Shown here one piece after another: positions 57,179 through 60,812 of a stretch of 64,000 nt of DNA; within the stretch, counting starts at the first letter, position 1, and every line of letters begins with the position of its first letter. The position numbers were made by a program, and so were the translations under genes. The notes below the pieces were generated by a model, which searched no databases, was not told the DNA's origin, and worked only from the letters and a program-made list of their open reading frames with translations. Origin of the DNA: Thermosyntropha sp. (lineage in GTDB: Bacteria; Bacillota; Syntrophomonadia; Syntrophomonadales; Syntrophomonadaceae); NCBI RefSeq assembly GCF_017656155.1, contig NZ_JACDOH010000007.1, positions 1 to 64,000 on the forward strand, given 5' to 3'.

Positions 57179-58138
57179 ATGAACGAACTTTTAAGGCTCT
57201 TGAATCTGCGCATAGACCTGGCTGTAGAAGCCCGCGACCTCGTACGCGGAGCAACTGGGCAGGAAATCCCCGGAGTTGAAGAAAGAGTAGAACAGATGGA
57301 ACACATCAAGATTAACACTATAAATATAATTAATGAAATGGGAGCCCAGCAGATGGGACGCCCGATAGGAATTTATGTAACTATTCAGTCCCCTCCCCTT
57401 AAGATTAACGATCCTTATGTAAGGGACGAAATTATTAAGGCTATGGAAAAAAGCCTGCATACCCTTTCCCAAAATATGCTCAAACCCGGGGACACGGTTT
57501 TGCTGGTAGGACTGGGAAACTGGCGGGCTACCCCTGACGCTTTAGGTCCTAAATTTATAGAATATAGCCCAATAACCAGACATTATCATCAAGAAGCCCC
57601 CCAGGCATTAGTAGAAGGAATGCGTCCTGTATGCGGCATTGCTCCCGGAGTTCTGGGCATAACCGGACTAGAAACATTTGAAATTATAAAAGGAATAGTT
57701 GACAGATTAAAGCCTGCACTGGTAATCGCTGTAGACTCACTGGCGGCACAGAATGTCGAACGAATAGGCACCACCATTCAAATGTCTAACACCGGCATCC
57801 AGCCAGGAGCAGGTATAGGCAACTTAAGACAATCCCTGACTTATGAAGGTTTAGGTGTCCCCGTTATAGCCATAGGGTGTCCTACCATAGTTAATGCCGG
57901 AATTATTGCCGACCAGGCCATCAAAAAGTTTTGTTTTCACAGCGGTGCTATGTACAATGAAAATAAAGCAATTGATTCCATTAAAGATGTCCTTTCATTC
58001 TTTGGCGGAAGTTTAGGAGTTACTCCTACCGAAATAGATGAAATAATTGAAAATACTTCGCGCATTATAGCTATGGGAGTGGCTAAATCATTATTCCCCG
58101 GTATTTCAGAAGAACAGCTTGAACTTTATGCCACCTGA
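57179..58138 (+). CDS. gpr: Germination protease GPR
   Basis: Spore protease that degrades SASPs at germination; made as an inactive zymogen in the forespore. 319 residues. LRIDLAVEARDLVRGATG near residue 10 is the prosequence region, whose EA(R/H)-like cleavage zone follows; VLLVGLGNWRATPDALGP near 109 and AVDSLAAQNVERIGTTIQMSNTGI, split over about 190-215, contain the conserved aspartates. ATG after AAAGGAGGTAATAACATT. It converges on an SASP gene, its substrate, 78 bases away. Confidence 0.94.
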   Translation: MNELLRLLNLRIDLAVEARDLVRGATGQEIPGVEERVEQMEHIKINTINIINEMGAQQMGRPIGIYVTIQSPPLKINDPYVRDEIIKAMEKSLHTLSQNMLKPGDTVLLVGLGNWRATPDALGPKFIEYSPITRHYHQEAPQALVEGMRPVCGIAPGVLGITGLETFEIIKGIVDRLKPALVIAVDSLAAQNVERIGTTIQMSNTGIQPGAGIGNLRQSLTYEGLGVPVIAIGCPTIVNAGIIADQAIKKFCFHSGAMYNENKAIDSIKDVLSFFGGSLGVTPTEIDEIIENTSRIIAMGVAKSLFPGISEEQLELYAT

Positions 58139-58215: not shown

Positions 58216-58485
58216 TTATTTCATACCACTTTGCTGATTCTGCTGCTTAATAGTATTTAAGTCCTGAGTCATGCTGAGAGGAGTAGCAGTACCTCCAGCG
58301 GATCTCTGTTGATAATCATAAATCATCTTCTTAACCATCTGTCCGCCTATACTGCCAGCCTGGCGGGCAGTAAGGTCCCCATTATATCCGGGTTTCAGGT
58401 TAACTCCCACTTCCTGAGCAGCTTCATATTTGAACTGTTCCATAGCTGCCTTAGCCTGTGGCACTAACAGATTATTTCTTGCCAT
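58216..58485 (-). CDS. Small acid-soluble spore protein, alpha/beta type
   Basis: 89 residues. SASPs saturate spore DNA and protect it from UV and heat, then feed germination. KYEAAQEVGVNLKPGYNGDL near residue 19 holds the GPR cleavage site (usual core KFEIA) and ARQAGSIGGQMVKKMI near 41 is the second conserved helix. The C-terminal tail (Gln-rich, ending QQSGMK) is longer than in Bacillus forms. ATG after AAGGAGGTGAAATTAG. Its upstream SigG-like promoter fits forespore expression. Confidence 0.95.
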   Translation of the reverse strand: MARNNLLVPQAKAAMEQFKYEAAQEVGVNLKPGYNGDLTARQAGSIGGQMVKKMIYDYQQRSAGGTATPLSMTQDLNTIKQQNQQSGMK

Positions 58486-58516
58486 CTAATTTCACCTCCT
58501 TTTCCTTTGGTAGTCT

Positions 58517-58546
58517 TATTGTGTCACCTTAACCTTTCTTATATGC
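58517..58546 (-). promoter_or_regulatory. SigG-type forespore promoter of the SASP gene
   Basis: Minus-strand GCATA (58542-58546), 18-base spacer, CACAATA (58517-58523), close to the known SigG pattern GCATR-N18-CATWMTA-like. Predicted start about 25 bases before the ribosome binding site. Confidence 0.7.
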
Positions 58547-58560
58547 TAGAAGTATTTTCA

Positions 58561-58680
58561 TCACCTTTTAATATTTTCCCCTCTTTCCTCATTTCTTTTT
58601 TTAAGCCAAATTCCCATCTCCTGAGCCACCTCAAACTTAATATTTTCTATATCTTTTTTCTTTTTTTCATTGCTTTTCAA
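58561..58680 (-). CDS. SASP-like mini-protein, 39 aa
   Basis: Short frame with a TTG start at 58680, seven bases after GGAGG. The product begins MKSNEKKKKDIENIK and continues FEVAQEMGIWLKKRNEERG. The middle IKFEVAQEMGI closely matches the GPR-site helix of alpha/beta SASPs (KFEIAQELGV), but the second DNA-binding helix with GSIGG is missing. It lies 75 bases upstream of the true SASP gene, on the same strand. Either a decayed duplicate cut short by a stop or a small independent spore peptide. Fifty bases upstream is the recG terminator; I see no clear promoter of its own. Confidence 0.65.
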   Translation of the reverse strand: MKSNEKKKKDIENIKFEVAQEMGIWLKKRNEERGENIKR

Positions 58681-58706
58681 AAAACTCACCTCCAGGTAAA
58701 CTTTTT

Positions 58707-58758
58707 TAAATAAAAAAAGCTAACATCGGCAATAATTTAAATATCCGATCTTAGCTTT
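58707..58758 (-). terminator. Terminator after recG
   Basis: Minus-strand stem AAAGCTAAGATCGG/CCGATGTTAGCTTT (one mismatch, 15-base loop) then TTTTATTT, 27 bases past the recG stop. Confidence 0.8.
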
Positions 58759-58784: not shown

Positions 58785-60812
58785 TTAATTTTGAATAACA
58801 TCATCTTCTTTTTTAAATTTTTTATTTATATAAAAAAGGAGTTGCTCATCAGGCTCTATAATCTTAGCCAGCTCACGTGCATTTTCAATAATTTTTTGAT
58901 CCTTTATAAGGTCTGCCACCTTGAGCTGGTCAAGGCCGTGCTGCCTTACTCCCCAGAAATCACCCGGCCCTCTCAGCAAAAGATCTTCTGCCGCCAGTTT
59001 AAAACCATCATTAGTATTTTCCATTGCTTTAAGTCTTCTAAAAGCTTCTTCGGTTTTAGGTTCCCCTAAAAGGAAACAATAAGCCTGTTCGTCTCCTCTT
59101 CCTACCCTTCCCCTGAGCTGATGCAGTTGAGAAAGGCCAAATCTTTCCGCCCTTTCTATAACCATAACGGTAGCATTAGGAACATCAACCCCCACTTCTA
59201 CCACTGTTGTAGAAACTAAAATATCAACAATCCCTGCTTTAAAATTTTCCATAATAAATTCTTTTTCTTTAGGCTTCATTTTGCCATGTAAAAGCCCAAC
59301 CTTGTATTCAGAGAAAACCCGATTTTTTAATTCTTCATAAAGGCTGACTGCTGCCTGTAAATCCTGCTTCTCAGATTCCTCGACCAATGGACACACAAAA
59401 TAAACCTGTTTTCCTTTTTTCAGCTCTTCTTTTATAAAATCATAAAGCCGATCGCGGAAAGATTCCTTTATATAAATCGTTTTTACCGGCTTTCTTCCAG
59501 GAGGAAGCTCATCTATAACTGAAAGTTCAAGATCGCCATAGAGAGTCAAAGCTAAAGTTCTGGGTATAGGAGTTGCTGTCATAACCAGAATATCAGGAAA
59601 ATCACCCTTCTGGCTCAATAAGGTACGTTGTTTAACTCCAAAACGATGCTGTTCATCTATTATCACCAGTCCCAAACGGTCAAAAAATACATCTTCCTGA
59701 ATAAGAGCATGAGTCCCTATTATTATATCTATCTTGCCCTGGCTTAATGCCTCAAGTATTATCCTACGCTGGGCGTTTCCCGTACTTCCGGTAAGTAAGG
59801 CAATTACCACATCAGCACCCTTAAAAAATTTTAAAATCGATTTATAATGCTGTTCAGCTAAAATTTCGGTAGGAGCCATGATAGCCGCCTGATATCCGCT
59901 GGAAACCGCTTTAGCCATTGCCAAAGCCGCTACTACGGTTTTTCCTGCCCCTACATCTCCCTGTAAAAGCCGGTTCATCTGCTTTTCTGCTTCCATATCA
60001 GCAAATATTTCTTCTATAACCCTCTGCTGGGCTGAAGTTAGATCAAAAGTCAGATTTTCAGTTATTCTCTTTACCAAATCATTTTTTTCTTTATGAACAA
60101 CATAATCTTCAGCTAAAGGTGTTTTTCTCTCCTGCCTCAAACCTATCTGAAAAAGAAAAAGCTCTTCAAAAGCCAGCCTTCTGCGTGCCTTAATATATTC
60201 TTCTCTTCCTTTCGGGAAATGAATATTCAAAAAGGCTTCAGATATTCCGCACAGATTATATTCCCGCCTGATTTTTTCATCAAAAATATCCGGATAATAA
60301 GGTAGAAATTCCTTTAAAACATGAAAAACTATACTGCGAACAGCCTTCTGATTCAAGCCTTCAGTTAAAGGATAAACTGGCAAAATCTTAAATGCCAAAT
60401 CTTCTTCCGTCATAATCTCATATTCGCTTACATTAATCTCCAAAGCACCGTAGTTCATCTTTACTTTTCCTGTTATCAGAATATCTAACCCAGGTTTTAT
60501 AATATTCTTAATATAAGGCTGATTGAACCATACTCCCTGAACTATACCGGAATTATCCTGAATAAAGGCTTTAAAAATTTTCATACCCCGCCCGGTCTTT
60601 ATCTCCTGAACCGACTTTACCTTTCCCTTTATCATTCCTTTTTCCCCAATCTTCAAATCCTTTATGCTGTGAACTTTTTCCCGGTTAACATAACTGCGGG
60701 GAATATACCATAAAAGGTCAAAAACATTTTCTACGCCCAGGCGCAAAAACTGCTTCTTTCTTTTAGGGCCCACCCCTTTAACATACTGTATATCTTGAAA
60801 TAAATCTTCCAT
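58785..60812 (-). CDS. recG: ATP-dependent DNA helicase RecG
   Basis: Remodels stalled replication forks and Holliday junctions. 675 residues: N-terminal helix-hairpin-like VKGVGPKRKKQFLRLG, wedge (OB-fold) domain at about 60-150, Walker A LLQGDVGAGKTVVA near 285, DEQHRFGV near 388, VMTATPIPRTLA near 416, and the RecG tail motif HQLRGRVGRG near 570 with a C-terminal TRG region. ATG at 60812. Confidence 0.96.
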   Translation of the reverse strand: MEDLFQDIQYVKGVGPKRKKQFLRLGVENVFDLLWYIPRSYVNREKVHSIKDLKIGEKGMIKGKVKSVQEIKTGRGMKIFKAFIQDNSGIVQGVWFNQPYIKNIIKPGLDILITGKVKMNYGALEINVSEYEIMTEEDLAFKILPVYPLTEGLNQKAVRSIVFHVLKEFLPYYPDIFDEKIRREYNLCGISEAFLNIHFPKGREEYIKARRRLAFEELFLFQIGLRQERKTPLAEDYVVHKEKNDLVKRITENLTFDLTSAQQRVIEEIFADMEAEKQMNRLLQGDVGAGKTVVAALAMAKAVSSGYQAAIMAPTEILAEQHYKSILKFFKGADVVIALLTGSTGNAQRRIILEALSQGKIDIIIGTHALIQEDVFFDRLGLVIIDEQHRFGVKQRTLLSQKGDFPDILVMTATPIPRTLALTLYGDLELSVIDELPPGRKPVKTIYIKESFRDRLYDFIKEELKKGKQVYFVCPLVEESEKQDLQAAVSLYEELKNRVFSEYKVGLLHGKMKPKEKEFIMENFKAGIVDILVSTTVVEVGVDVPNATVMVIERAERFGLSQLHQLRGRVGRGDEQAYCFLLGEPKTEEAFRRLKAMENTNDGFKLAAEDLLLRGPGDFWGVRQHGLDQLKVADLIKDQKIIENARELAKIIEPDEQLLFYINKKFKKEDDVIQN

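Follow-up and report, generated by a model that had tools for sequence, protein, structure and literature searches.

A short SASP-like gene that keeps only the GPR-site helix lies beside gpr in Thermosyntropha and in other families of its phylum

Is a 39-codon frame next to a full-length SASP gene a gene in its own right, and if so what sort of peptide does it make? The question is raised by the window, the whole stretch of 64,000 nt of Thermosyntropha sp. DNA analysed here, in which a minus-strand frame at 58561..58680 begins with TTG, ends with TGA and encodes the 39-aa peptide MKSNEKKKKDIENIKFEVAQEMGIWLKKRNEERGENIKR. A ribosome-binding site, GGAGG (58689..58693, minus), lies 8 nt 5' of the TTG; a longer alternative starting with GTG at 58689 would overlap it. 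Residues 14–24, IKFEVAQEMGI (58609..58641, minus), correspond to SASP helix 1 with a GPR-type site, for which a cut between E17 and V18 is predicted. This core aligns with FKYEAAQEVGV of the adjoining SASP (58216-58485), and its KFEVAQEMG fits the E-[IVA]-A-x-E pattern of such sites; in SASPs, the sequence cut by GPR is 'EIA' (PMC8452069). The sequence-only reading had placed the frame, its TTG start, the GGAGG spacing and the core exactly as we find them, and the close similarity that it saw to the GPR-site helix of the neighbouring SASP is borne out by the alignment. Our answer to the first half of the question is that the frame is a real gene, which we call the mini-SASP; at 120 nt it exceeds the default minimum length of common gene callers.

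To characterize the peptide, we compared it with full-length SASPs. It scores 22.4 bits with PF00269, whose cut-off is 22, and the match is confined to positions 6-31 of the 59 in the profile and thus to helix 1. A missing second DNA-binding helix had already been remarked on, and indeed no GG-containing helix 2 was found in the window sequence, either between the core and the stop or from there to the next gene, which rejects the idea of a frameshifted full-length SASP. Helix 2 with its GG motif is likewise absent from the homologues described below, a set from which frames with that motif had been left out, and the N-terminal LVPQA segment is lacking both in the window's peptide and in the collected homologues. 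AF2 predicts one helix spanning residues 3-38 (pLDDT 85.5), and the mini-SASPs matched nothing when solved structures were searched by profile.

Using the window's peptide as the sole query, we recovered this short frame at the corresponding position in the genus's other genome (59% identity, E 1e-11), together with many matches in the family, where the frame stands directly before a full-length SASP gene. The names of the matched genomes identify this family as the Syntrophomonadaceae, which includes Syntrophomonas. A profile built from 18 such peptides matched 39 of 54 family genomes (a few of these matches are weak and may be full-length SASPs) and reached further families of the phylum. 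We collected 60 related short frames, with starts chosen by ribosome-binding site, which give 58 distinct peptides of mostly 33-55 aa; nearly all have a Shine-Dalgarno sequence (SD) of at least 5 nt, and 51 of 52 match PF00269 at E <= 0.1. A survey centred on gpr covered 60 loci from 58 families, selected so as to sample many families and without regard to the mini-SASP, which a few of the genomes were already known to have; the gene was present in f6, f37, f40, f50, f66, f74, f77, f108 and f118. Of the 17 survey loci where recG and gpr are neighbours of each other, 9 have it. Together with f1, f3, f9, f33, f95 and f124, these nine make 15 GTDB families of one phylum (the 60 collected frames and one more, in f50). 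The families with a mini-SASP beside gpr presumably include Desulfitobacterium and Dehalobacter.

Across 21 close pairs of mini-SASPs, some of which share a genome so that not all are independent, pooled pS was 0.406 and pN 0.132. Within the core, the two glutamates are kept in 60/60 and 60/60 sequences and the glutamine and glycine in 59/60 and 59/60, while third codon positions are free. Since the pattern used for searching is biased towards the core, the argument rests on the freedom of third positions and on the contrast between pN and pS, which together show that selection acts on the peptide. The consensus kept is [LIF]K[FY]E[VI][AGS]QE[MIF]G[IL], so that the mini-SASPs have a core of their own, [VI][AGS]QE[MIF]G, as against, for example, AAQEVG in the neighbouring SASP. 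Over 14 residues around the core, mini-SASPs average 59% identity to those of other families and 43% to their own neighbouring SASP, the former being the higher value in 38 of 41 cases. They are therefore an old, separate group and not recent copies.

The gpr gene lies convergently downstream in 54 of the 60 cases within the fetched flank; of the remaining six, four come to the end of their contig within 800 nt, and in one (L123) gpr is slightly further away. RecG is encoded within 500 nt upstream in 45/60, and at about a dozen loci recG is not seen beside the mini-SASP and gpr is still there. A full-length SASP gene stands between mini-SASP and gpr in f1, f3, f9, f40, f50, f77, f118 and f124, and none does in f6, f95, f74 and f108, where the gaps are as short as 56, 148, 6 and 50 nt, respectively. 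A convergent neighbour speaks for a shared function less strongly than a common operon would.

These results bear on the proposal, made from the sequence, that the frame might be a remnant of SASP duplication. A half SASP beside a SASP looks like one, and two genomes (G012 and G017) have no intact mini-SASP. Against decay, or a chance frame, stand a pN well below pS, a conserved SD and a core shared across 15 families, and the mini-SASP persists where no full-length SASP lies alongside. Two outcomes had been named as evidence against a functional frame, a random substitution pattern and its disappearance from close relatives; neither was seen (pS 0.41, pN 0.13; 39/54 family genomes with a match). 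Selection, cross-family similarity and synteny refute both versions, to which we give next to no credence. From this comparison of genes, the mini-SASP appears instead to be a genuine spore-protein variant in its own right that has persisted beside gpr over a very long time, and not a decayed copy. The other half of that proposal, a small spore-specific peptide, finds the support that sequence can give in the conserved frame, purifying selection, the GPR-site helix and the adjoining gpr and SASP genes.

In the window, the minus strand carries in order a recG-like helicase gene (58785..60812, directly upstream of the mini-SASP and named from its own sequence), a hairpin, the GGAGG, the mini-SASP and a full-length alpha/beta-type SASP of 89 aa (58216..58485), and all of these are faced by gpr on the plus strand (57179..58138; germination protease, TIGR01441 338 bits), which is convergent with the mini-SASP and SASP genes. 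The full-length SASP scores 100.4 bits against PF00269, the strongest of three matches above cut-off in the genome, and matches the SspC structure 2z3x in the profile search of solved structures. The hairpin (58716..58758, minus; z -2.8), with its T-run, may be the recG terminator and/or the 5' leader of the mini-SASP. Most family members have a similar T-run hairpin immediately 5' of the SD, in some without room for a promoter after it. The reading of an RNA element was rejected: Rfam gave no match of note, only one sub-threshold hit.

Between the mini-SASP and the SASP gene, the intergenic DNA at 58493-58559 (minus) is nearly invariant across the family, reading AAAGTCTTGAAAATACTTCTAGCATATWA and then GGGAAACAATAAGACTACA, and occurs once in this genome. 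Its first part, GAAAATACTTCTAGCATATAA (58539..58559, minus), is a probable SASP promoter or leader; a regulon-wide operator was rejected, since a search of the genome that allowed up to 3 mismatches finds this element only once. The second part, ACAATAAGACTAC...AGGAGGTG (58493..58522, minus), is a SASP leader conserved in the family. Taken as a whole, 58493-58559 is probably SASP promoter plus leader, with no standard -35 visible. In the family to which the window belongs, the coding sequence for the mini-SASP's Lys-rich tail partly overlaps an A-rich DNA element that is conserved and belongs to the SASP gene behind it, and this tail is therefore shaped partly by constraint at the DNA level.

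What, then, might the peptide do? The kept GPR-type helix, the missing LVPQA segment and GG helix, the basic tails and the single predicted helix together point to a minor SASP destined for cleavage by GPR, and we consider it somewhat probable that the mini-SASP is such a variant, a short basic helix that would be made in the forespore and cleaved at germination. Retaining only the first SASP helix and the cleavage motif and having no second DNA-binding helix, it would remain in the core of the spore, a small, basic and helical peptide that binds DNA in the SASP manner weakly or not at all, until GPR, the product of the adjoining gene, cut it at E17|V18 early in germination. It would be a short-lived basic spore peptide. 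One possible use is as an amino-acid reserve, in the manner of the gamma-type SASP (SspE), which has been reported absent from clostridia (PMC3533761).

Core-less frames of similar length, found in the mini-SASP's place in genus g22 and in one further genome (G004), count against a simple GPR-only role. These Lys-rich ORFs of 34-39 aa lack the GPR core, and the g22 ORF is constrained too (pS 0.46 vs pN 0.09, and 0.26 vs 0.11), so a basic peptide can be kept without a GPR site. They also weigh on the idea that the mini-SASP is a dedicated GPR-interacting peptide, a competing substrate or an activator that times SASP breakdown by tuning GPR in late sporulation and germination, because in g22 the core is lost and gpr is still present. 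That idea draws on the retention of just the protease-recognition helix beside gpr, on an intact GPR-type core with V or I after its glutamate in most mini-SASPs as against A or S in the family's neighbouring SASPs, and on the persistence of gpr even where recG is missing; yet the gene order could be ancestral synteny and we know of no GPR inhibitor peptide, and we regard the idea as unlikely.

We are equally doubtful of an accessory DNA- or RNA-binding peptide, in which helix 1 and a basic tail, alone or with the full-length SASP, would bind nucleic acid and the Lys tail would replace helix 2. The mini-SASPs are mostly net positive (53/60; 20% Lys), and the core-less g22 ORF keeps its Lys-rich ends under constraint. 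However, the LVPQA motif and the GG helix typical of full-length SASPs here are missing, and the flanking tails, mostly Lys/Arg-rich, vary freely and in the window's family partly overlie a DNA element. Least plausible of the functional readings, and in our judgement improbable, is a regulatory ORF upstream of the SASP gene, which its translation would control. The mini-SASP does lie tens of nt to about 110 nt before that gene, with the nearly invariant element in between, but selection acts on its amino acids and it is kept in f6, f95, f74 and f108, where no SASP follows. A leader peptide as its sole role is rejected, since several families have it next to gpr with no SASP gene there.

The preferred reading, a minor SASP cut by GPR, can be set against known spore proteins. 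Like the alpha/beta-type SASPs (PF00269; SspA/SspC/SspF), the mini-SASP has helix 1 with a GPR site and a PF00269 match at the cut-off; unlike them, it has no GG helix 2 or LVPQA start, is about half as long, and has Lys-rich tails and a conserved core of its own. With SspE it may share being a GPR-cut spore protein that does not protect DNA, whereas no sequence relation was detected and no SspE-type Pfam or NCBIfam match was obtained among the mini-SASPs. Bacillus minor SASPs (SspH, SspI, Tlp and others) are small spore-core proteins whose role is mostly unknown; the mini-SASP would resemble them in size and presumed location, and gave no Pfam or NCBIfam match to them. Our literature search, including the SASP surveys PMC3533761 and PMC8452069, found neither a SASP with helix 1 only nor a recG-SASP-gpr cluster described. 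Individual mini-SASP genes may already bear a SASP label in public annotation, because PF00269 reaches some of them at its cut-off. SASPs are treated as DNA-binding proteins with a GPR site there for their removal; a conserved gene with the GPR-site helix and no DNA-binding half would separate the two functions naturally, and offers a compact natural means of testing what GPR recognises and what takes the place of a gamma-type SASP in clostridial spores.

Promoters resembling those of sigmaG are clear in some families only, and perfect in f95. Sites with at most 1 mismatch precede 24 of the 60 mini-SASPs against about 13 expected, in genomes that are related and hence not independent. Finally, other small ORFs occupy this region. 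The core-less, Lys-rich ORFs of 34-39 aa in the mini-SASP slot, constrained in genus g22 as described above, are those of L154, L158, L159, L160 and L153, for example MAKKKKQRTQDRAAELGAFEDVTTTKEDARPKQKKNKKS. Next to gpr in f66 and f74 (L111:1996-2253 and L118:3448-3711), a FEVAQE core is joined to a different conserved C-terminus, GLTxPxTGADxLxKTDHGNxxRFxPK, and in f40 genomes (L062, L066) a further small ORF ending in VRPxYExxPGE lies between the SASP genes and gpr.
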